In this document: piece after piece, positions 3,738 to 34,477 of the stretch | How the letters are laid out: each line of letters starts with the position of its first letter | Numbering within the stretch: the stretch's first letter is position 1 | Source: a virus | Virus record (IMG/VR): IMGVR_UViG_3300046313_000104 | Span: 1 to 36,767 of that record | Direction: 5' to 3' (one strand) | Length of the DNA: 36,767 nt | Notes under the pieces: generated by a model | Told to the model about the DNA's origin: nothing | The model's input: the letters and a program-made list of their open reading frames with translations, nothing else | Databases searched by the model: none | Position numbers and translations under genes: made by a program

Positions 3738-6311
3738 TTATCCTCCAAAGACAATAGACATTGCTATTGCTTTTCCTGTTGTTGTTCCACCTGCTGCTAC
3801 AAATCCTGATAGTTCACGAACTTGAATAGCTACACTTAAAGCGGGCGCTGTTGCAAATGTTAGTACAGTACCACTTACTGTGTAATCTACTGCGGGTACT
3901 TGTAGTATACCGTTTTCTAGTACCAATAAACTTGTTTCGTTACTGCCTGAGCTAACTTCAAAGTCAGTTTGAGTTCCTGTGCCCACATAACTGCGGACTA
4001 CAAAACTGCCGGTGCTAGGGCTACCGCCACCACTGCTAGCAACACTACCTGGCTTCCATTTACTGGTAGCTGTGTCGTATACCAGTGCTTGTCCGGTTGT
4101 AGGTGCAACGGTTAAGTCAACGTCAGTTAGGTCACTTACGGCGCTGGCGCCGCTGCCTGCGGGTCCTGTAAGACCAGTTAAGCCTTGAGGTCCTTGAGGG
4201 CCTTCAACACCTTGTACACCCTGAATGCCCTGTAAGCCTTGTGGGCCTGTGGCACCAGTGTCACCTGTATCGCCTTTTAAACCCTGTGAGCCTGTTGGAC
4301 CTGTTGGGCCCTGAATACCTTGTGGACCTTGTGCACCTGTTAAGCCAGTATCGCCAGTTAAACCCTGAGGTCCTGTGGCACCTTGTGGGCCTGTTAAACC
4401 TTGTGGACCCGTTAAACCTGTTGGACCTTGAGCACCGGTGGCACCTTGTGGCCCTGTTAAGCCTTGTGGACCGGTTGGGCCTGTGTCGCCAGGTAAGCCT
4501 TGCAGACCTTGAACTCCCTGAGCACCTTGTGGCCCTGTTAAGCCTGTATCGCCTGTGAGTCCTTGAATACCCTGTGGACCTTGTGGGCCTGTATCGCCTG
4601 TGATACCCTGCAGACCTTGCGGACCTTGAACTCCCACAACCTCAGATAGGGCTATAGTTGTTACTTCTATTTTTGAACCAACGGCTGGAGGTGCTGAAAA
4701 TGTAACGACGCCATTATTAACAAGGTAAGCTTCACGTAGTTGACTGATACCACCGATGTTTACAAAAGTCTGCGCTTCGCTGGTTGGAACAGTGGACAGT
4801 GTAAAATTAACTGTGGAACCGTTACCAACAAATGTGTCTATGGTAATACCTGCTGCAGCACCTTCACCAGCGGCTACATTACCGGGCTTCCATGTACTGG
4901 TTGATGTATCGTATACCAGTGCTTGTCCGGTTGTAGGCGTTACACTTAAATCAACATCTGTTAAGTCCGTTAGTGTGCTAACACCTACACCGGACTCACC
5001 TTGAATACCTTGCAAGCCTTGTGGACCAGTGGCTCCTTGAGAACCTGTATCGCCTGTTAAGCCTTGAGGGCCTGTATCTCCGGTATCGCCTTTGAGACCT
5101 TGCGCGCCTGCGATACCTTGAATACCCTGAGGGCCTTGGGCACCAGTTAAACCGGTTAATCCTTGTGGGCCTGTATCGCCTTGAGGGCCTGTTAAGCCTT
5201 GAATACCTTGTAAACCCTGTGTGCCTTGAGCACCTTGTGGGCCAGTGTCACCTTGAGGGCCTGTTAGTCCCTGTGGTCCGGTTAAGCCTGTGTCACCTTG
5301 AGGTCCAGTAGCTCCCTGAGGGCCTTCTGGACCAGTTAAACCTGTTGAGCCTGTGGCACCTGTTGGCCCTTGTGGACCTTCTACACCTTGAGTGCCTTGA
5401 ATACCTTGAATACCTTGTGGACCTGTAAGTCCTGTGTCGCCAGTTAAACCCTGTGGGCCAGTTAGGCCTTGAGCGCCTGTGTCACCTTGTGGTCCTGCGA
5501 GTCCTTGAAGTCCTTGAGGGCCCTGTGGCCCAGTATCGCCTGTTAGTCCCTGCACACCTTGTAAGCCCTGCGGACCTTGAGCACCGGTGGTGCCTGTGGC
5601 ACCTTGAGGACCTGTTACACCCTGAGCACCACTTAAATCACTGGTATAAGTGTATGCTGTGCCGTTCCATAAGTACAGCTTACTGTTATCAGGATCATCT
5701 ACGCTGGTTGTATTAATAACGGCAAACTCGCCCATTAAAATATTTGCGGGCGCAGTGTCAGCTAGTAAATCTGCTACGCTAGCATAAGTTTTGGCAATCT
5801 TGAAGCCGGAACCTGTTAGACCCTGCGGACCTTGCGCACCCTGCGCACCCGTGGCTCCAGTAGCTCCAGCAACACCTTGAACGCCTTGTGGACCTTGAGC
5901 CCCTGTTGCGCCTTGAGCACCTGTGAGACCTTGAGGGCCTTGAGGGCCCTCAACGCCTTGCACACCTTGTGTGCCTTGTGCACCAGTAGCACCAGTGGCA
6001 CCTTGTGGTCCTGTTAAACCTTGTGGACCTGTTGGCCCTTGAGGGCCTTGTGGTCCGGCTGGTCCAGTTAGACCTGTTTCACCTTGTAGTAGTGTAGGCT
6101 TATTTGTTAAATCTGTGTAACTACCGCTAAAAGGTGTAATCCAGCTTAATCCACCTAATGCATTTTTTACTACGTTTTGACCAGGAGTACCATCAGAGAA
6201 AACTAAGTTACTTATAGAGCCTAGCTGACTTAAACCTGTAACTGTAATACTACCAAAAGTATATTCTGCCGTTTGGTCTAAACTGTACGGCTTTAATTTT
6301 AATATGTTCAT
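3738..6311 (-). CDS. Collagen-like tail fibre protein (857 aa)
   Basis: The start is ATG 6311, with AAAGG upstream. Residues about 1-75 form a non-collagen N-terminus ending in the fibre motif [14 protein letters not shown]. Three Gly-X-Y arrays follow, about residues 76-167, 227-443 and 559-721. They are rich in GPQG, GLTG, GDTG and GVQG, which would form collagen-type triple helices. Between arrays lie small domains: [20 protein letters not shown] occurs near 450 and a near copy near 735, each followed by a related beta domain ([16 protein letters not shown] and [13 protein letters not shown]) also seen in the protein at 7150-8424. The product should be a long trimeric shaft with hinges. 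The coding DNA is highly repetitive and prone to length change. Confidence 0.88.
4150..4636 (-). repeat. Collagen-like coding repeats, array 3
   Basis: Nine-base periodicity from Gly-X-Y codons, coding for repeated G-P-Q, G-L-T and G-D-T triplets. It is the most C-terminal of the three arrays in the fibre gene. Confidence 0.85.
4985..5632 (-). repeat. Collagen-like coding repeats, array 2 (longest)
   Basis: About 215 residues of uninterrupted Gly-X-Y coding, the longest array. Many sub-blocks (GPQGLTG, GLQGIQG, GDTG) recur nearly verbatim in the DNA, which would favour slippage or recombination. Confidence 0.85.
5810..6085 (-). repeat. Collagen-like coding repeats, array 1
   Basis: About 90 residues of Gly-X-Y triplets with more Ala than the other arrays (GATGAQG and similar). 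It begins right after the DLTNKPTLL motif and ends at the [15 protein letters not shown] segment. Confidence 0.85.
6097..6131. repeat. 35-bp near-identical repeat, copy 1
   Basis: This matches 7592-7626 at 33 of 35 positions. Both copies encode the fibre motif [11 protein letters not shown], in two different genes. It could serve as a homology block for exchange of fibre modules. Confidence 0.8.
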
Positions 6312-19068: not shown

Positions 19069-19096
19069 ATGCCCCCTGTTACGGGGGCTTCTATTT
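19063..19096 (-). terminator. Terminator-like hairpin at the tape-measure stop codon
   Basis: A GC core (GCCCCC 19071-19076, GGGGGC 19083-19088) is extended by a 7-bp AT stem after one T-T mismatch. The outer arm includes part of the tape measure stop codon. On the minus strand it is followed by a U-rich tract that is also the arm of the next hairpin. Confidence 0.75.
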
Positions 19097-22000
19097 AAGT
19101 TAGCTTTACGCTTTCTTTTACTTTTGCTGTCCAAACCTGCTTGTTAGCAGAGTCTACAACTGCTTTAGCAACTTCTTCTGCATTACGACTTTGAGCATCG
19201 TATGTTGCAGTTATTAAGTGCCCTGTCTCTGTTTGCTGTTGTGTTCTTAACTGCGTTACTTCTAATCTTAGCTGTCTTAGTTCTTGAACTACTTCGACTA
19301 ACTTGCTGCCACCTGTGAACATACCTTCAGTTTGTTCATTAGTGTAAACACGACCAGGGGTACTAAAGTCAACCAGCTCTCGCCCAGCTTCTCCAACCAT
19401 AGATATTCCGCTAGCTAAACCACCAGAGGCAAAACCTCTGACACGTTTAAAGTCTTCTGGACTAAACGCAGAAGACATTGCTGCCGGGTCTATCTTGAAC
19501 TTAGTGTAGCTTTCGGCCATTAAGTCTGAGTAAGACATATTACTATTTTGAGATAGTAATTCTTTGGCTTTTGCGGCCATGTCTTCACTAGTACCTGGAG
19601 TAAACGCCTTAGCTTTAGCAATAGCTTCATTAGCTTGAGCAGCATTTAAGTTAGTAATTGCATCAGTAATGCTTAATACACTAGTATTAATAGTAGTCAG
19701 AACAGATATCTGCTCCTCGTTTAGAGCATAAGTTCTTTCTTCTATAGATAGTTGTGTATCAATAGAGCTAGTAGTATCAGTTAAAGCATTTTGTACTTTT
19801 GTAAAGTCCTGCGTATACTTCTCTGAGCTAGCATTATAGGTTTTAGAAGCATCTAAGAAAGATCTTGAGGCTGACTCAAGCTGTCCCAGAGCTGCCTGTT
19901 TGGCTTTTTCTTCTGCGGGGGTAGCTGCTGTGCCTGTAGCTGTTGAAAGGATTGCATCAAACTGAGACTTAGCTTCTGCATATTTCTGTGCAGGAGTTAG
20001 CGGAGATAACGAATCTAACAGTAAGGATTCTTTGAATTTCTTAAGTGAAGTAGAGTACTGAGATAGTGCCGTAATAGAACTCTTCAAAGTATTCTGCTGC
20101 TCTCTTAAGGCGTTAGCTTCTGCAGTCTGCGCTTCTTTTAACTTATCTGTAGCAGTTTTTACATCTTCTAAGGCGTAGACATATTGCTGCATAGATAACA
20201 ATGCAGGGTCTGTCTGTGAAAGAGTATCTGCTCTACCAATACCTTTTAACTCTGACTCAGACTTAGTTAGTGCTAAGATTTGGTCAGATAAGCTCTTAGT
20301 AGATTCTTTCAACTTAGCCGCTAGAGCTGTAGAAGCTTGCTCTAGATTCTCTAGTGGAGGTAATATACTGTCTAGTGCAGGGGCTAAGTTAAGTAGCGCC
20401 GCATAAGCCTCTGTATCACCCGCTTTTTGCAGTTCTGAAACAATCTCTACGAAACCTTCTCGAGTTTTAGGTAGCTCAATACCATAATCCCCAAAAGCTT
20501 TAGTTAGTTGTTCAGTGGTTTTTGTTGCTTTATAAGCGTCGGTAAAAAACTTATCGTAAAAGAATCCAGTAGACTGTATAAATGCATCTAAACTCCCGAA
20601 AGCATCCACAAAGTCTTGGGCAGCCAAAGCACCGTTTAAACTGGTCTCAGAGACTGTTTGACCTAGTTGATCAAAAACTATGTTAGTAGCTTTTAAGTTA
20701 GTAGATAGTCGTTGCAAAGTATCTAAACTAGTTTCGCCGTCTCTATTGTAAGCCGTAGTACCCAAGGCTAGTTGTGCCATAGATTCCTGCATAACTGCAA
20801 GCTCATCACTAAATCTTTTAGCTATCTGGTCTTCACTTAGTCCTTTTAAGTCTATGCGAATATTTTTAGTAAAACTAGTAATAGAATCCGTACCTATACC
20901 TAAACTTTTAGCTAGTTCTGCAGTTTTATCTCGCATACCGATAAATGCTTCACCTAAACCAGCTCTAGCACCTTCGTCCATAGCTGAGTAGCTTGTACTA
21001 TATCTAGCTCTACGGAATAGACGTTTAGTACGAGTTTCTGAGAAGTTTTGACCTTCAAAGCCTCTTTCACCTCCAAAAGTACCTACCACACCTTGACCTA
21101 CGTTAGTAACTTTTTTACCAAATACTCGGTTAACCAAACCACCAATTGCTCCGCCTAGTATAGTACCAAGACCTGGTATCAAGGAACCGACTACAGCACC
21201 TATGTTAACAGCTCTATTACCAGTAGTACCGCCAGCAGAATAACCACCCGATACTGCTTTTCCTATAGCTCTAGCACCCATGAAACTACCTACTAGTCCC
21301 ATACCACTTTTAGCTAGTCCACCTAAAGTAGCTCCAGAGGATCCTGCCATACCAGCTTCTTGCGCAGCCAACATTGATGTTTGCTGTGAACCTGCTGTAG
21401 TACCCAAAGATTTTGCTAAGGTAGCATTACCTGAAATAAGTTCTTTTGCTGAACTAAATACATTACCTAATTCACTAGTAGCGCTTCCGAAAGTATCGAA
21501 GACATTCTTACCAGCGTCAAAGATTTTCATAATAGAATCTACTGGGTTTGACATTGCCCCTTTCAAAGCATCTGCCAAGAATGGTAGTATGTTTTGAAAC
21601 CCTGTAGTAATACCGCTAGCTAAATCAGCAGTAAAGCTACTTAAGAAATTATCGAATAATCTTGATAAACCCGCAACTACTGGCTCTATTAATGCTTTGA
21701 TAATTATATTGAAAGGTTTTCTAAGTTCCTTTGCTATAGTATCGCGCATAACTTTACCACCAGCAGCTCCACCTTCAGTAAGGTTTACGTATACAGCATC
21801 AGCTAGGCCGTTGTACAGTGAAGTATTCTTTAGCTCGTAAGCAGCAACTTTGTTGATGCCATCAAGTTTAGCAGAAGTTATATTATTAACGCCGTCAATT
21901 TGCGTTTGTAAAATCTGAGCCTGTGCCCGAATTTCTGCAGTTATTAATGCCTTCTTATCAGTATCGTTTTCTTTCTGGTACTTATCAGTTAGTTCTTGGA

Positions 22001-25000
22001 ACTTTTTTACACCAGACTGTTGTAGCTCGTATATTTTCTTTTCGCTATCTAGCTTTAGACTAGATAATTCTAAGCTTTGCTTCTCTAAAATATACTGAGA
22101 TTCTGAAACATTCTCTATTTGTTTAGCTGTTTCTAGTCTTTGTTGAGATACCTCTAAGTCGGAGCTTCGTTTTGTGAAAGCATCGTTAGCTAGGATATTA
22201 GCTATTTCAGCGTACCCATCAGCTATATCGCGTACACGTTTTGCGCGCTTTTCTTCTAGTACAGCATTATTTTTATTTATTTCTGCTTGAGTTTTAGCCG
22301 AAATATTTATTCTGTCTTGTGCATTTAGTCTGTCTATATCTGCCTGTATGCTGAGCTTAGTAGCAGCACTTTGTGTATTAGCCATAGCTAAACGCTTTAT
22401 AGCTATTTCTGTATCTAAATCTTTTAACTGCTTTTTAGATTCTAAATCTAAGTTTGAGTTTATTAAGGTTACCTTACTAGCTTCCTGTTCGATTGATAAT
22501 TTTTCACCAATTTGCTCTAAGGTACTTAATTCAGATAGTTTTGCATCATTTAGTGCTTTTGAATTATCTAAACTTTCTTTCTCTATTTTTGCGGTTGCTT
22601 TGATAACACCCGCTTGTTCGGTAATAGCTATAGCTACGCGCTGTCCGGCCAGTATAGCTACTTGTGCTAAAGTACTCTCAACTCTCTGTACGAAAGCTAA
22701 GGCTTCTTTTGCACCGGCTACGCCATCAGCTAATTCTGCAGCTAATTTTGCTGAAGAGCCTTTGGTAACGCCACCAGATAGGTATGAACTACGTAATTCT
22801 AACCCTTTTTCACGCTCTGCTAGACCGCCCAAGCGTATATCTCGAGGGTCCATGTTTGCTTTTTCAGCGGCAATTCTACTTAACTCTAGTTGTATACCTA
22901 ATTTTTCCTGCGAAGTAATTAAATCCAGCTGAACTTTTATAGAAGCGGCTTGCGCATCTATTAGTTCTCGATCATTTTGAGCTTTTAACCTGACACCAGC
23001 TAAAGAATCTCCGAGTAATCCTGCTACTGCTGAATTGACTGCTGATGTTGCTTTTTGCCATTCTGCGGCAATTCGGCTTCCAACTAACTCAGCGCCGGCT
23101 TTCATTTGGTTAAATACGGCTTCTTTGAACACCGTTTTTAAAGCATCAGTTTCTGTAGTTATTTGTGCAACTACGGAAGTTTTAATCCGGCTAACAGAAT
23201 TGATGTTTTTAATTTTTTCTTCTATCTCTGAGAGCTCTGCTGACATTTTTGCAATATTATTGCCATCGCGAGGCCCTGTTAAACCTTGTTGAAGACCTGC
23301 TAAAAATCCGCTGCCTCCTAGGGCATCTTTTAACTCGGATGCTCTGGCGGTTAGGCTTGATATATCGTTCTCATTGTCTTTTATAACTCGTTTTGCTGCA
23401 GACATAGCATTTGCCATATCTTGTATTTTATCAGTTAAACTTACTAACTCACCAGCAGTTGCTGGGGGGAATAGACTTAGGTTAGATATATCCTTGGTTA
23501 CTTCACGCATGGCATTTAAAGTCTGCGTTGGGTCTTGCAATGCCAGGTCTAATTTTAAAGCACTCTCTACCATAGCAGTACCTAACTTGGATACGTTATC
23601 CGTAGGTAGGTAAGTATTTGCTAAATCTTTAAATACTTTGCTGGCATCCCCAAAGGCTTGCTTTAGTTCTGTGCCTTTGGCTGCTGTAATAGAAGCTTGT
23701 TTAGATACTTCTAACAAAGCTTTTGTTATCAGAGGTATCTTTTGCTTAGCTACATCAGAGGACATTTCGCTGAAAGCTTTATTGATTGAGCTTACGTCTA
23801 ATGAATCAATGTTTAGCGTATCTTTTACTAGTTTCTTAAAGGAGTCTAGTGCCCCTGTATCTTCGGCTACTTTAACAGCTTCTACGATACCAGAGCTAAG
23901 TCCGTTTACCATAGAGGTCTGTACATCTTTACCAAATATACCTTTTACTTTGTTGATGAACCTGTCTAATTCGTTCATCTTGTCAAGCTCTTTGAAGCTA
24001 TTTACCACCACACTTTGAACAGTATCTGCTAGCTCTTTTAACGCGGTAGCTCTAGCATCTATAGCCTGTACAGTGAAATAAGCAAAAGGATCTTTAGCAG
24101 ATATAGCATTCATAGTTCTGCTTACATTGCCCAGAGAACCTTCTAAGGACTGTAAAGACTCAGATGTTTTCTTTGCTTCTTTGGCCGTGTTACTGAAATG
24201 ATCTACTAAAAAGCTTATAGCAGTTACAGCTAAGCCTATTAACATCATCCAAGGGCCTAAGGCATTCATGAAGGTACCCACTGCAGTAGTAGCTATACCA
24301 ATACCGCCAGCTAGTCTAGTCCATCCGGCACGCATAGCACCTAGTTCTCCAGTAGCTTTGCTTGCTTTAATCTGTTCATTTAGTTTTGCCCAACCAGCGC
24401 CAACACCCTCTACTGCGGTGGTCTGACTAGCTAAATTGATTGCTTCGCGTGAGGCTGCTTGTGCATTTGCGCGAGCAGCGGAAGCCTGTAGTTGTCCAAT
24501 AGTAGTAAATAAGCTATGACGTTTAGCCAGGCTTTCATTACCTGTCTTAACTACCGCATCGTGTTCGGCTTCTGCGTCTTTAGATTTTTTTATTGCAGTG
24601 GCAATTTCGGTATATGCTTGACCAACTTTGCCACCACTTTGAGCTAGTTTATTGATTTTTGCAATATCTTCATCAGTAATAGCCTGAATAGATTCTTTAT
24701 TTAGTACTTTAAATACTTCTTTTGCAGATTTTTTAACTTCTTCGTTTGATCTAGCAATAATAGCTTTTAATTTGGTTTCGGCTTCGTCAACAGCAGCTAC
24801 TCTAGCATCTGCTGCGTTAGCTGCAGCAATTTTATTTGCAGCAACTTCTTTGGCTAAACCTTTTTGAGCTTCTGCTACCTTTATGTTAGCGATTTCACGT
24901 GCTTGCGTGGCTTGATCAGCCATTCGCTTTTTCATAGCACCTAACTCAGGGATAGCTTGCTTTAGCAGTATAGCGCTAACTGCGGCCAGTGCGGTAGCTA

Positions 25001-25934
25001 GACCAGTAGGGCTTTCTGCCAGTATCTTAATAAGTGGACCAAGTACCTTATTGACAACTTCTAACCCAGTTTGCGCAACATTTTTAAGGCTGGCTAATAA
25101 TTGGTCGTATGGGTTTGCTTGTAGGTTAATAGCCCCAAACTTTTCTTCTAACTGAGTTAGTACTTCGGCAGCAAATGCTCCGCGTTTTTCAAAGTCAGTT
25201 AAGTTTGCAGTAGTCTTACCAATAGAGCGAGCATATTTTTGTGCCGCGTCATCTACACGTACAAAAATACCTAATTCGTCCAATAGTTCTGGTTCTAACT
25301 TAGTAATACCACGACTTAAACGAGATAAGGCATCTGGCATAGCTACGCCAAGTGCTTGAGATACGTTTCGTGCTCCTGCAGCTAATCTTTTTAGATTCTC
25401 TGAAGTCATGCCTGCTGCAGTAGTTTGTGCAGTAGCTGTCATAGCCTCGCGTAAACTAACTGCACCATCTGTTGCTTTTACCAAGTCTTGTGCCAGAGTA
25501 CCCAAGCTTCTTCCGCTTTGAGCACCTAATTGGTCCAGACCTTTAACCATGTTTGTAGTGTCAGCAGCATTTTTCAGTGCACCAAATGCAGCGGATACTG
25601 CAAATAAGTTAGCTGCAAATGTGGCATAAATTCTTACTAAACCACCAAGGCCTTGGGCTTGGTTAGCAAAATCTCTGGCACCTGCTCCAGTACTTCCAGC
25701 ACTACCACGAGCACGTCCATAGTCTTGACCACTCATCACGCTTTCGCTACCGGTAGGAGCAGATTTAGCGTATACAGCTTTTGATCCTGGTGTACCACCT
25801 AACCCAGTTTTTGCGGCGGTTTTTTGAGTAGCTTTTAATTCTGAGTGTAGTTCTTGTACATTTTTTAAAGTTCTATTAGCGGTACCATTATCACTAATGT
25901 TTACGCCAATATTTACGTTATTTTGTGCGGCCAT
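19095..25934 (-). CDS. Tape measure protein (2279 aa)
   Basis: I chose ATG 25934 (MAAQNNVNIGVNISDNG), which follows AGGAG at 6 bases; a TTG 15 codons upstream lacks a good site. Size, position after the G/GT chaperones and composition identify it. There are long helical, Ala/Lys/Glu-rich coiled-coil stretches (about 340-500 and 960-1350), hydrophobic segments near 95-121, 545-577 and 1573-1601 (SLIPGLGTILGGAIGGL), and the tape-measure C-terminal motif FASGGLASGISMVGEAGREL near 2161-2196. It sets tail length and is ejected at infection, where its hydrophobic segments may enter the membrane. At about 0.15 nm per residue it predicts a tail near 340 nm. No lysozyme or peptidase motif was noticed. 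Confidence 0.93.
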   Translation of the reverse strand: MAAQNNVNIGVNISDNGTANRTLKNVQELHSELKATQKTAAKTGLGGTPGSKAVYAKSAPTGSESVMSGQDYGRARGSAGSTGAGARDFANQAQGLGGLVRIYATFAANLFAVSAAFGALKNAADTTNMVKGLDQLGAQSGRSLGTLAQDLVKATDGAVSLREAMTATAQTTAAGMTSENLKRLAAGARNVSQALGVAMPDALSRLSRGITKLEPELLDELGIFVRVDDAAQKYARSIGKTTANLTDFEKRGAFAAEVLTQLEEKFGAINLQANPYDQLLASLKNVAQTGLEVVNKVLGPLIKILAESPTGLATALAAVSAILLKQAIPELGAMKKRMADQATQAREIANIKVAEAQKGLAKEVAANKIAAANAADARVAAVDEAETKLKAIIARSNEEVKKSAKEVFKVLNKESIQAITDEDIAKINKLAQSGGKVGQAYTEIATAIKKSKDAEAEHDAVVKTGNESLAKRHSLFTTIGQLQASAARANAQAASREAINLASQTTAVEGVGAGWAKLNEQIKASKATGELGAMRAGWTRLAGGIGIATTAVGTFMNALGPWMMLIGLAVTAISFLVDHFSNTAKEAKKTSESLQSLEGSLGNVSRTMNAISAKDPFAYFTVQAIDARATALKELADTVQSVVVNSFKELDKMNELDRFINKVKGIFGKDVQTSMVNGLSSGIVEAVKVAEDTGALDSFKKLVKDTLNIDSLDVSSINKAFSEMSSDVAKQKIPLITKALLEVSKQASITAAKGTELKQAFGDASKVFKDLANTYLPTDNVSKLGTAMVESALKLDLALQDPTQTLNAMREVTKDISNLSLFPPATAGELVSLTDKIQDMANAMSAAKRVIKDNENDISSLTARASELKDALGGSGFLAGLQQGLTGPRDGNNIAKMSAELSEIEEKIKNINSVSRIKTSVVAQITTETDALKTVFKEAVFNQMKAGAELVGSRIAAEWQKATSAVNSAVAGLLGDSLAGVRLKAQNDRELIDAQAASIKVQLDLITSQEKLGIQLELSRIAAEKANMDPRDIRLGGLAEREKGLELRSSYLSGGVTKGSSAKLAAELADGVAGAKEALAFVQRVESTLAQVAILAGQRVAIAITEQAGVIKATAKIEKESLDNSKALNDAKLSELSTLEQIGEKLSIEQEASKVTLINSNLDLESKKQLKDLDTEIAIKRLAMANTQSAATKLSIQADIDRLNAQDRINISAKTQAEINKNNAVLEEKRAKRVRDIADGYAEIANILANDAFTKRSSDLEVSQQRLETAKQIENVSESQYILEKQSLELSSLKLDSEKKIYELQQSGVKKFQELTDKYQKENDTDKKALITAEIRAQAQILQTQIDGVNNITSAKLDGINKVAAYELKNTSLYNGLADAVYVNLTEGGAAGGKVMRDTIAKELRKPFNIIIKALIEPVVAGLSRLFDNFLSSFTADLASGITTGFQNILPFLADALKGAMSNPVDSIMKIFDAGKNVFDTFGSATSELGNVFSSAKELISGNATLAKSLGTTAGSQQTSMLAAQEAGMAGSSGATLGGLAKSGMGLVGSFMGARAIGKAVSGGYSAGGTTGNRAVNIGAVVGSLIPGLGTILGGAIGGLVNRVFGKKVTNVGQGVVGTFGGERGFEGQNFSETRTKRLFRRARYSTSYSAMDEGARAGLGEAFIGMRDKTAELAKSLGIGTDSITSFTKNIRIDLKGLSEDQIAKRFSDELAVMQESMAQLALGTTAYNRDGETSLDTLQRLSTNLKATNIVFDQLGQTVSETSLNGALAAQDFVDAFGSLDAFIQSTGFFYDKFFTDAYKATKTTEQLTKAFGDYGIELPKTREGFVEIVSELQKAGDTEAYAALLNLAPALDSILPPLENLEQASTALAAKLKESTKSLSDQILALTKSESELKGIGRADTLSQTDPALLSMQQYVYALEDVKTATDKLKEAQTAEANALREQQNTLKSSITALSQYSTSLKKFKESLLLDSLSPLTPAQKYAEAKSQFDAILSTATGTAATPAEEKAKQAALGQLESASRSFLDASKTYNASSEKYTQDFTKVQNALTDTTSSIDTQLSIEERTYALNEEQISVLTTINTSVLSITDAITNLNAAQANEAIAKAKAFTPGTSEDMAAKAKELLSQNSNMSYSDLMAESYTKFKIDPAAMSSAFSPEDFKRVRGFASGGLASGISMVGEAGRELVDFSTPGRVYTNEQTEGMFTGGSKLVEVVQELRQLRLEVTQLRTQQQTETGHLITATYDAQSRNAEEVAKAVVDSANKQVWTAKVKESVKLT

Positions 25935-26001
25935 CTGTTCTCCTAATAGCGTTACATTGTCCCATACCTGAAAATCCAAGATGGAATTATAGTTTTACAC
26001 G

Positions 26002-26050: not shown

Positions 26051-26087
26051 AAAAAAGCCCCTAGCTTTTTACTGCTAGGAGCTTTTT
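26051..26087 (-). terminator. Intrinsic terminator after the tail chaperone gene
   Basis: A 14-bp stem (26052-26065 with 26074-26087) with one G-U type mismatch, an 8-base loop and a run of T on the minus strand. The stop codon TAG (26077-26075) lies inside the stem. Confidence 0.85.
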
Positions 26088-26847
26088 GATTTTACTTTTT
26101 CTGACACTATCTTTGAGCGTATCGAATCCATTTGTTGTAGGAAAGTTAATGCTAGTGTTGCTTCGATGTCTTCAATACCGTGTATCTTAAACAACTCAAA
26201 CAATATAACATAATTCTTGCCCAAGTAACCACCACCCATAGTATCCCATCTGTCTTCCAATATACTGTATATACTAAAGCATTGCTGTACTAGTATAGGT
26301 AGATCATTTATATCTACAGGTATTTCTTCTTCTATGGGTTCTTCTCCTAACATTGCACACATTTCAAAGTAAGTATCCTTTGTCATGTGTACATCTGTAT
26401 TTTGGAAGTATCTACGGAGCTGGTCTTGAATTTCGATTATTTGCTCGTTGAAAAGTTTCCCAGGTCTGTGACCTGTTCGCTAATAAAGCTGTCAAAATTT
26501 GTGGAATTCTTCATTAAGTACAACGCGTTTTCTTCGTTGTATTCTAATTCTGTATCAGGATCTTGACCTGACAAGTCTACTGGAGCTAGCTGCTCTAAGT
26601 AACTTAATTTTAGACCGCTCCAGCCTTTTACGCTAGCTTTTACATATAGGTCTAAGAATAGATCGTCATTCAGTTCTTCTACTGGTTGGCGATTCTTGAA
26701 ACTAGTTTTAGTTGCTTTCTTACGGATAGTCTGTAAGGTTTCACGCGACAGGAATGCAACCTGTACTTTGAAGTCAGGCATACCAGGGTACTCTACTTCC
26801 AGTGATTTTGAAGGAACTAACAGTGTTTTCAACGACAGAGATGACAT
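26075..26847 (-). CDS. Tail assembly chaperone G-T fusion made by -1 frameshift (257 aa)
   Basis: This is the predicted long chaperone. Translation starts at ATG 26847 and reads 131 codons to the slippery heptamer GGGAAAC (26461-26455), then shifts back one base and continues 126 codons to TAG at 26075. After the shift the frame reads LFNEQIIEIQDQLRRYFQNT without a stop and joins the frame of MTKDTYFEMCAMLGEEP. The T-like part is acidic and helical. In lambda, gpG and gpGT recruit tape measure and tail tube protein; the same is likely here. The ATG at 26386 has no ribosome binding site, which argues against a free T protein. The slip itself is inferred. Confidence 0.85.
26437..26847 (-). CDS. 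Tail assembly chaperone, short form (G-like, 136 aa)
   Basis: The start is ATG 26847, with AAAGG upstream. This is the unshifted product, ending KSTS-type residues (FSTSK) at TAA 26439-26437. The protein begins SSLSLKTLLVPSKSLEVEYPG and has FKVQVAFLSRETLQTIRKKA and WSGLKLSYLEQLAPVDL, a pattern typical of siphophage tail assembly chaperones acting on the tape measure during tail building. It is made in excess of the fusion if the slip is partial. It sits between major tail protein and tape measure, the canonical place. Confidence 0.88.
   Translation of the reverse strand: MSSLSLKTLLVPSKSLEVEYPGMPDFKVQVAFLSRETLQTIRKKATKTSFKNRQPVEELNDDLFLDLYVKASVKGWSGLKLSYLEQLAPVDLSGQDPDTELEYNEENALYLMKNSTNFDSFISEQVTDLGNFSTSK
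26455..26461 (-). other. Programmed -1 ribosomal frameshift site GGGAAAC
   Basis: The heptamer is phased as G_GGA_AAC in the G frame, the canonical X_XXY_YYZ arrangement. Six bases downstream ACGAGC (26449-26444) can pair with GCTCCGT (26420-26414) with one bulge, a candidate stimulator. A 6-bp hairpin (26461-26475) abuts it upstream. Confidence 0.85.
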
Positions 26848-30909: not shown

Positions 30910-32241
30910 TTAAGCTACGTAACGTAGAGCGGAAACTGCGCCGCCTAGGTTTGTTGTAACTTGAGTCATACCGGTACGTAGGCTAGCTACCATAACACGG
31001 CGTTGAGTCTCAACTAGGTCTTGTGTATCAACACGTAGACCGCGCTGGTTACCAACAATGAAGTTACCTGGGTTGAAGCAGATAGCACCAACTGCGTCAG
31101 CAGCTTTGTCGGCGAATTCAGCACTTACGATAACTGGAGTGTTACCAACTGAACCGATTTGGCCAGTTAGAACGGTTGCGTTAGTACCAACTTTGTCCAT
31201 AGTTTGGAAGATTGGATCTTCTAACAGGTCGTAGTAGTTTTCTGTGCTTACGATGTAAACCAGCTCGCTTGGGTCTAGGCCCCAGGCTCCTAGGTCACGG
31301 CGCATAGCTTGTAGGCGTGCAACAGTCATTTTGTCAACTGCAGAAATGTCCATGGTCACAGAGCTAACTGCGTCGTATGTGGCCAGACCTTTAACTGGGT
31401 CAGAACCTGTACCTGCACCACGTAGCATAGCGCGGTCAACAGCGCGAGCAACACGGCGAACCATGGCGTCACGGATAACAGGCATAATAGCCAGTAAGCT
31501 GTCTTCTTCTTCTTCGTATGCAACGTATTCGTTAGTAGCTACTTTGTACGCGTTCAGAGTAATCTCTTTTAATGCGTGTGTATCAGTGTTACCAGCGGAA
31601 GCTGTTGTACCGAAGGCTGTGTTAGCCATCCATGTAGCAACACCAGCTTCTGGGTTCACAGGAATAGTCATAACGTTAGTCTGCATAGTAATGCCACGCA
31701 GGTTAGGCGCAACAACTAAACGACGACGTACTTCGTTTTCCATGTTGGTAGAAACTTCTAGTTCCCAGGTTGCGCTTGGCAGGTGAGCGCCGTACTTTTC
31801 AACCATTTGAGCACCAAACTTAGTGGCACCTAGAGCTTTACCAGCCATTTTAGCTAGGATAACTGCTTTTTCTTTGTCTGCATAAGACATTTCACCGGCT
31901 TTGCCATCTGTGAATTGCATACGTGACTTCTGGATTGCTTCTAGTTCAGCAGCTTTCTCTTTTAGGGAAGCTTCTAGACCTGCAACAACAGATTTAGTTT
32001 CATCGGCTTGAGCAGCGAAACGCTTCTCGACTTCAGCCATAAGGGCTTCAGCACCAGTTGTGGATGGTGTTACTAGAGCAACAGCAGCCTTGATTTTTGC
32101 GTCTAGGTCAGCCTGAGCAGCAGTAGCAGCAGCTTTTTCAGCAGCAGCTTTTTCTTGTGCAGCTAGCAGGGACTTAGTGGCTTCTTGAGCAGCAGCAGTA
32201 GCAGCGTCGGCCAACATTTTTTGTAATTGTTCTGGAGTCAT
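30910..32241 (-). CDS. Predicted nested major capsid precursor from internal start (443 aa)
   Basis: ATG 32241 (Met200 of the fusion, MTPEQLQKMLADAA) lies in the capsid frame right after the protease domain and is preceded by AAAGGA (32254-32249) at 7 bases, as good a site as those of the independent genes here. The product would hold the scaffold-like coiled coil plus the capsid domain, close in layout to an HK97 gp5 precursor. It would solve the problem of needing hundreds of capsid subunits but few protease copies. The start is inferred from sequence only. Confidence 0.6.
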   Translation of the reverse strand: MTPEQLQKMLADAATAAAQEATKSLLAAQEKAAAEKAAATAAQADLDAKIKAAVALVTPSTTGAEALMAEVEKRFAAQADETKSVVAGLEASLKEKAAELEAIQKSRMQFTDGKAGEMSYADKEKAVILAKMAGKALGATKFGAQMVEKYGAHLPSATWELEVSTNMENEVRRRLVVAPNLRGITMQTNVMTIPVNPEAGVATWMANTAFGTTASAGNTDTHALKEITLNAYKVATNEYVAYEEEEDSLLAIMPVIRDAMVRRVARAVDRAMLRGAGTGSDPVKGLATYDAVSSVTMDISAVDKMTVARLQAMRRDLGAWGLDPSELVYIVSTENYYDLLEDPIFQTMDKVGTNATVLTGQIGSVGNTPVIVSAEFADKAADAVGAICFNPGNFIVGNQRGLRVDTQDLVETQRRVMVASLRTGMTQVTTNLGGAVSALRYVA

Positions 32242-32838
32242 TTCCAATTCCTTTGTGATATCGCTCTTTGCTTCGCCGGAGGCTTCTAGCCCTTTAGCTG
32301 AGTCGCTTGGGTTAGCAAATTGCATTTTGAAACTCTTAAATTCTTCGGCCGTATCAAACGCCTTAGAAAGACTAAATAGTGTATTTTGATTAGCTGGTAC
32401 AGACACAACTGATATTTCGTGTAGTTCCAGTTCTTTTACAACAAACAGCTCTAAGGCTGAATTATATTCCGCATCAACGATACGGAAACCAATGCTAAAG
32501 GCGGTTAGCACACCGTCTTTTACAAGATTGAAGACGTCTTCAGCAGCAGCGGAAATTCTTGCTTTTACAAACAGTCCTTTTTCGTCAACTTTGTGGTCAG
32601 TCATTCTACCTACAGGCTCATCATGCTGGTGGTAAGCAAGGATTACTGGATTTTTCAAGTAATTCTTGATACCGGCTTCCCACACACTTGCAGGAACAAT
32701 GTCGCCGTGTCTGTCAACATCATTAGTTGAAGCATACCCTTCGATGGTAATGCTATCAATTTTTCCGTCAGCAGTAGGTAGAGGTTCACTCTTAGTAAAA
32801 GAACTGTTTAAAAACAGGACTTTATTTTTATCTACCAT
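30910..32838 (-). CDS. Fused prohead protease and HK97-fold major capsid protein (642 aa)
   Basis: The start is ATG 32838, after AAAGG. Residues about 25-160 are an S78-type HK97 prohead protease: GYASTNDVDRHGDIVP, PVILAYHQHDEPVGRM (His70 or His72) and GVLTAFSIGFRI (Ser115), then LELHEISVVSVPANQNT. Residues about 200-310 are an Ala/Lys/Glu-rich coiled coil like the HK97 delta/scaffold domain. From about 335 to the end is an HK97 capsid protein: RRRLVVAPNLRGITMQTNVM, PVNPEAGVATWMANT, VDRAMLRGAGTGSDPVKGLA, ENYYDLLEDPIFQTMDK. In many phages protease and capsid are separate genes. An internal start at residue 200 probably gives a separate capsid precursor. Confidence 0.93.
   Translation of the reverse strand: MVDKNKVLFLNSSFTKSEPLPTADGKIDSITIEGYASTNDVDRHGDIVPASVWEAGIKNYLKNPVILAYHQHDEPVGRMTDHKVDEKGLFVKARISAAAEDVFNLVKDGVLTAFSIGFRIVDAEYNSALELFVVKELELHEISVVSVPANQNTLFSLSKAFDTAEEFKSFKMQFANPSDSAKGLEASGEAKSDITKELEMTPEQLQKMLADAATAAAQEATKSLLAAQEKAAAEKAAATAAQADLDAKIKAAVALVTPSTTGAEALMAEVEKRFAAQADETKSVVAGLEASLKEKAAELEAIQKSRMQFTDGKAGEMSYADKEKAVILAKMAGKALGATKFGAQMVEKYGAHLPSATWELEVSTNMENEVRRRLVVAPNLRGITMQTNVMTIPVNPEAGVATWMANTAFGTTASAGNTDTHALKEITLNAYKVATNEYVAYEEEEDSLLAIMPVIRDAMVRRVARAVDRAMLRGAGTGSDPVKGLATYDAVSSVTMDISAVDKMTVARLQAMRRDLGAWGLDPSELVYIVSTENYYDLLEDPIFQTMDKVGTNATVLTGQIGSVGNTPVIVSAEFADKAADAVGAICFNPGNFIVGNQRGLRVDTQDLVETQRRVMVASLRTGMTQVTTNLGGAVSALRYVA
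32249..32254 (-). promoter_or_regulatory. Internal ribosome binding site in the protease-capsid gene
   Basis: AAAGGA on the minus strand, 7 bases before ATG 32241. It falls at the junction between protease and scaffold domains. Confidence 0.65.
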
Positions 32839-34045: not shown

Positions 34046-34477
34046 CTATATAAATCTTGAGAATGGCGATGCGTAGCTAGAGTTTGGTACGGATACTTCA
34101 CCTGAAACGTGCTTCTGACGCTGTAATTCAATCCAACGCTGCTGTTTAGGTTCGGAGCCTGCTGCAGGGGCTTTACCATATATGGCGTGAAGCGCTACAT
34201 GATGCGGATTACATAGGGTGTAAACCTTTTCATATAACTCTATTTTGTGCTCTGCAATAAATTCGTCACGAACAGCCAAAATGCCTTCGTCAGTTGATAT
34301 ATCGTAACCTTTTCTATCGGCCCACGATTCTAAGAGTATTGTAACTGAATGTAAGTGGTGTAGTTCTAAGTCTTTTGTACTGTCACAGACAAAACATTCG
34401 GACTTTTTATCGTATGCTGCTTTCGCTCGATCGCGAACCCACTTTACAGGAATACGTTTATTTGTGTTCTTGGCCAT
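34046..34477 (-). CDS. HNH endonuclease (143 aa)
   Basis: The start is ATG 34477, first gene after the promoter at 34508-34536, with AAAAGG about 12 bases upstream. A zinc-binding HNH fold is visible: Cys28-x2-Cys31, the LELHHLHSVT histidines (40, 41, 43), Cys89-Asn-Pro-His-His and His97. Phage HNH proteins next to the terminase can be needed for packaging-end cleavage in HK97-like phages, while others are homing endonucleases. The position between terminase and portal favours a packaging role, but the pattern (RDRAKAAYDKKSECFVCDS) also resembles small HNH proteins of T4-like phages, so the role is open. Confidence 0.85.
   Translation of the reverse strand: MAKNTNKRIPVKWVRDRAKAAYDKKSECFVCDSTKDLELHHLHSVTILLESWADRKGYDISTDEGILAVRDEFIAEHKIELYEKVYTLCNPHHVALHAIYGKAPAAGSEPKQQRWIELQRQKHVSGEVSVPNSSYASPFSRFI

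Follow-up and report, generated by a model that had tools for sequence, protein, structure and literature searches.

A predicted −1 ribosomal frameshift between the tail assembly chaperones of an uncultured T5-like siphophage lineage and its variation among relatives

Tail chaperone genes of the contig

The stretch of DNA analyzed here, called the window below, is the viral record IMGVR_UViG_3300046313_000104 at positions 1-36,767 (36,767 bases). Two overlapping reading frames on its minus strand are flanked by the genes for the major tail protein and the tape measure protein. Both are assigned as tail assembly chaperones by HMM profile only: the G-like frame (26437..26847, 136 aa, zero frame, stop codon TAA at 26439-26437) matches PHROG_313 (E 1.5e-20), and the T-like extension (26075..26455, −1 frame, 126 residues beyond the shift, stop codon TAG at 26077-26075) matches PHROG_3914 and is 36% identical to T of phage pVp-1. 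The very long tape measure protein (19095-25979, minus strand, 2294 aa) matches PHROG_3779 over part of its length. A slippery heptamer, G_GGA_AAC (26455..26461, minus strand), lies in phase as a candidate −1 shift site, and the −1 frame is open from the heptamer to 26075, yielding a 257-residue fusion with the junction DLGN-LFNEQ. An earlier note on this DNA had read the heptamer GGGAAAC, its phase and its position 15 nt ahead of the TAA of G from the letters, and all three are exact; the 257-residue fusion and the junction NLFNEQ that it gave are likewise reproduced exactly in translation.

Judged by its protein sequences, the contig is from an uncultured T5-like siphophage lineage. The terminase shares 49% identity with those of T5-type Vibrio phages, and T5-type phages are also closest for the major tail protein (35%) and for G (at most 40%). 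Searches found no DNA-level match of the contig to isolated phages, no relatives of G in bacterial and archaeal genomes and no tRNA genes in the contig, which were sought as a clue to the host. A 642-aa protein (30910-32838, minus strand) matches head maturation proteases at its beginning and, over its whole length, families of major head proteins, so that protease and capsid appear to be fused. An 857-aa protein (3738-6311, minus strand) contains collagen triple-helix repeats (Pfam PF01391, E 4e-74).

Conservation and exchange of the slip site

Viral contigs were scanned for relatives, and removal of duplicates left 149 distinct loci with T in the −1 frame; counts over these related loci do not represent independent observations. 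The in-phase G_GGA_AAC is kept in 140 of the 149, which answers in the affirmative the question, raised in the earlier note, of whether the heptamer is conserved in related phages. In the 36.8-kb window, GGGAAAC occurs once, compared with 2.95 copies expected by chance. The window's genes contain in-phase heptamers of the form XXXYYYZ (Y = A or T) at a density of 0.0027 per codon, so that about 0.036 are expected in the 13-codon shift window. The codons GGA and AAC are invariant (140/140) at gene-wide frequencies of 0.24 and 0.43, respectively. The preceding Leu codon ends in G throughout the heptamer-keeping relatives (gene-wide frequency 0.22), and at least 32 swaps between CTG and TTG on the tree never led to the loss of this G. 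Across relatives, the distance from AAC to the zero-frame stop is 3 to 36 nt, and the opening of the −1 frame precedes the Leu codon by 1 to 28 nt, so that the shift is confined to a short stretch.

A change of frame through stuttering of RNA polymerase, instead of the ribosome, would likewise yield the fusion, a reading that has no specific support and that we hold to be next to negligible. Runs of identical bases are only three to five long, and what is conserved in the relatives is a heptamer phased to the codons of two tRNAs rather than a homopolymer.

All nine loci that lack G_GGA_AAC have Ala or Ser in place of Gly and AAT in place of AAC. In eight of them the Ala/Ser codon ends in A, which creates A_AAT_TTT or A_AAT_TTC (A_AAT_TTY) one codon later; the ninth, L066, reads TCG AAT TTT TCG, i.e., G_AAT_TTT. 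The earlier note had named related phages with a disrupted heptamer and two separate genes as the pattern that would speak against frameshifting. This pattern is absent, as the −1 frame is kept open in 9/9 of these loci and another in-phase heptamer is present in 8/9. On a tree built without the slip site, a minimum of five exchanges between site types is needed to explain the supported branches, T staying in the −1 frame throughout, and a single common origin of the alternative site types was rejected (AU p 0.003). Recombination at the junction could have contributed to these exchanges.

It could also be proposed that T is translated separately, from the ATG at 26386 or a weaker internal start, and that the heptamer is incidental. 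This ATG is the first in-frame one of T in the window, a Met at its place is kept in 116 of the 149 relatives, and several isolated T5-type records annotate T in that way. However, the first in-frame ATG changes position among relatives, and a Shine-Dalgarno (SD)-like motif is missing before the ATG at 26386 and, even when loosely defined, precedes the Met of T in just 4/116 relatives vs 71/140 for the start of G. Separate translation is further contradicted by the invariance of the heptamer codons and by a T frame that, ahead of the Met, is open back to the slip site at every locus. We therefore regard an internal start as very improbable. The earlier statement that the T-like frame has no ribosome binding site of its own holds for the window and for all but four of the 116 relatives with this Met, and, judged from sequence, T is not expressed independently. 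A long hairpin over the ATG of T (26397-26358, minus strand, −17.5 kcal/mol) was considered as a general element and dismissed, as its pairs are lost beyond close relatives.

Structures beside the slip site

The perfect 6-bp hairpin that the earlier note had described as ending on the first G of the heptamer is present (CAGGTC-ACA-GACCTG, 26461..26475, minus strand, −6.7 kcal/mol), and only 0.05% of sampled synonymous versions of these 15 nt fold equally well. Among relatives with G_GGA_AAC, folding attributable to synonymous choice is in excess by −1.19 kcal/mol at the hairpin, which ranks first of 121 gene windows (mean −0.05 and sd 0.15 over the 121 windows, next best −0.68 kcal/mol); this comparison with other windows of the same genes is the only way in which the codon-choice tests allow for relatedness. 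CAG accounts for 85% at the Gln column of the hairpin vs 6-32% at other Gln columns, and GAC for 80% at its column vs 30-60% elsewhere. The sixth pair gives mixed evidence, with GTC enriched and GTT depleted. GAC and GAT were swapped at least 22 times on the tree, so that the preference for GAC is a standing bias and not one inherited state. GAC is found in 113 of 136 G_GGA_AAC types but in none of the five alternative-site types.

Selection on the upstream stem is supported in one respect and not in another: synonymous codon choice in the relatives favors it, but covariation between the two variable positions of the hairpin, sought in the relatives, is absent. The latter is what a hairpin formed by chance would show, with amino-acid sequence and relatedness mimicking conservation, and some relatives indeed have four pairs or fewer. 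Yet a chance hairpin would not be expected to rank first in synonymous-choice folding, to keep GAC dominant through so many changes on the tree or to lose its codon bias precisely in the alternative-site types, and we consider this explanation unlikely.

Selection might instead act on an internal SD-like AGGT located 9 nt ahead of the heptamer, as in dnaX, the hairpin being a by-product. The sequence CAG-GT supplies AGGT at a distance inside the 8-11 nt from which an SD is reported to stimulate −1 shifts (PMC6321510), and the excess of CAG at its column agrees with such a role. The GAC bias of the 3' arm is left unexplained by an SD, however, and the next codon is never GTG, the choice that would make the SD longer, so that this alternative appears doubtful to us and a hairpin is judged more likely than an SD. 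Taken from codon usage, a selected 5' element adjoining the heptamer is likely. As upstream hairpins that adjoin a slip site attenuate −1 and stimulate +1 shifts in a 70S system (PMC6321510), the likeliest role of the hairpin would be to tune the −1 shift downward, and it is probably a selected modulator. The window resembles the 5' modulators of that study (hairpin or internal SD) in having a short duplex adjoining the 5' side of the slip site. Unlike those duplexes, which were placed in constructs, it is natural, marked by codon choice and overlaps the site by one base.

Downstream of the heptamer, the bulged stem proposed in the earlier note (26414..26448, minus strand; core GAGC at 26446-26443 with GCTC at 26420-26417) does exist and lies in register with a stem of the relatives, but it is weak in the window (−4.4 kcal/mol, z about −1.2) and pairs poorly across relatives. 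A conserved downstream structure was also sought by fixed alignment and rejected, the consensus fold of 132 sequences being empty. The stem of the relatives is visible only by synonymous resampling and register. The first 42 nt past the heptamer show a folding excess when the T frame is resampled (ranks 1-4 among 80 windows), with a null that is imperfect where this region overlaps G. Of 120 distinct sequences, 31 have a stem that begins 8 nt past the heptamer and forms at least 7 of its 8 pairs, for example with GAGCAACT pairing with AGTTGCTC. The window keeps only the core GAGC/GCTC of this 8-bp stem, and its bulged stem is a reduced version of a stimulator-like element. Strengths of the upstream and downstream stems show no trade-off (Spearman 0.10, p 0.28). 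One covariation count used sequences partly picked for pairing and is given little weight.

Predicted direction of the shift in T5-type phages and outer relatives

In 14/14 isolated T5-type phages examined (L105-L111, L270-L275, L292), T lies in the +1 frame and UUU_CGN is present. This motif sits at the homologous Phe codon, a position without variation in an alignment of eight representatives, and none of the seven phages scanned for a −1 heptamer has one. In the window, whose T lies in the −1 frame, UCA follows the Phe codon, so that no UUU_CGN motif is formed. A second uncultured group (L277-L290 and L293, the contig of the latter ending inside T) has A_AAT_TTT at the codons GAA AAT TTT, with T in the −1 frame.

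From this arrangement we infer a +1 shift in the T5-type phages. The record of Salmonella phage Shivani joins the two frames by an 832-nt span, which is the arithmetic of a +1 shift. Most isolated T5-type records leave the candidate UUU_CGN frameshift unannotated. T5 and Sugarland were stated to lack a predicted frameshift signal (PMC6256483), and our comparison suggests that a +1 site was overlooked in these phages; an earlier description of the T5 site may exist, as this was judged mainly against the open-access literature.

In the G protein tree, a single branch with a support of 97 separates the +1 phages from the −1 phages, although long branches make the details unsafe and the ancestral direction is not given by the tree. 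It is tempting to propose that, within one homologous T5-type chaperone family, recoding moved and reversed around one conserved Phe codon, with +1 shifting at UUU_CGN in the isolates, −1 shifting at A_AAT_UUY in other uncultured lineages and, in the lineage of the window, −1 shifting one codon upstream at G_GGA_AAC with a selected, abutting hairpin that tunes it, a scenario for and against which we find the balance even.

Relation to known systems and proposed mechanism

Low-level −1 frameshifting between G and T is conserved widely in long-tailed phages (PMC5009743). We are highly confident that the tail chaperones of the window, from an uncultured T5-like lineage, are joined by a G/GT-type −1 programmed ribosomal frameshift, because the phase is exact, the −1 frame is open and both halves match tail chaperone families between major tail protein and tape measure; because most relatives keep the site and nearly all that lost it acquired a new −1 heptamer; because T has no conserved start or SD and stays in the −1 frame through the exchanges; because synonymous choice favors structures on both sides of the site; and because the g-t genes of the haloarchaeal virus HCTV-1 have the identical reported heptamer (PMC5009743). 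HCTV-1 differs in its archaeal host and apparently unrelated sequence. In HSTV-2, a +1 shift is likely (PMC5009743).

As in the lambda-type G/GT system, a −1 heptamer near the end of G would lead to a GT fusion (PMC5009743), and the overlapping chaperone frames of lambda (gpG/gpGT, G_GGA_AAG) and its counterparts likewise lie between major tail protein and tape measure. Unlike lambda, the heptamer of the window ends in C, a hairpin abuts it upstream, the downstream stem is variable, and G and T belong to T5-type PHROG families. The homologues T5.143/T5.142 of T5-type phages (Demerecviridae) share gene order with the window (identity 33-40% for G and up to 36% for T), whereas their T is in the +1 frame with a conserved UUU_CGN and, in those scanned, without any −1 heptamer.

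In the proposed mechanism, most ribosomes would read G and terminate at the TAA, while a smaller share, whose P and A sites hold GGA and AAC, respectively, would slip back by one base onto GGG AAA and continue through T to produce small amounts of a GT fusion. If lambda is a guide, G would coat the tape measure protein, the T part of GT would recruit the tail tube protein, and the ratio of the two products would matter. The heptamer would be the essential part. The stem located about 8 nt downstream is a probable stimulator of the shift in many relatives and would be vestigial in the window, and the abutting hairpin most likely tunes the shift down. The phase, conservation, codon constraint and homology are read directly from the sequences, and slippage, its efficiency, the effects of the hairpins and the chaperone role are inferred here. 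In Escherichia coli, A_AAA_AAC promotes far less slippage than A_AAA_AAG (PMC5009743), and together with the weak downstream stem this implies that efficiency may be low; E. coli may, however, not be the host.

The G/GT −1 event is ordinary and textbook in kind. What varies are the abutting upstream hairpin, apparently under codon selection, the slip sites, which were exchanged repeatedly, and the direction, which seems to have reversed within homologous genes. The same junction in homologous genes thus forms a natural series with at least three slip sites, apparently two directions and repeated exchange, which lets one probe how a programmed shift changes site and direction while the fusion protein survives, and whether 5' hairpins set the G:GT ratio.

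Transcription signals around the chaperone genes

A terminator-like stem with a T run (26914-26891, minus strand) lies between the major tail protein gene and G. A second one (26084-26051) lies at the end of T and includes the T stop codon inside its stem, which suggests that the chaperones are transcribed separately from the tape measure gene. The gap that follows T, ahead of the tape measure gene, contains a perfect sigma-70 promoter (26030-26002, minus strand; TTGACA, 17 nt, TATAAT, with TG before the second hexamer). At this place, 117 of 136 distinct relatives show a promoter-like match, 112 of them with an exact TATAAT, compared with 2% of shuffled controls. Just one further perfect match to the sigma-70 consensus occurs in the window (34536-34508, minus strand; 0.03 expected by chance for the pattern), upstream of the gene at 34046-34477, beside the portal gene.
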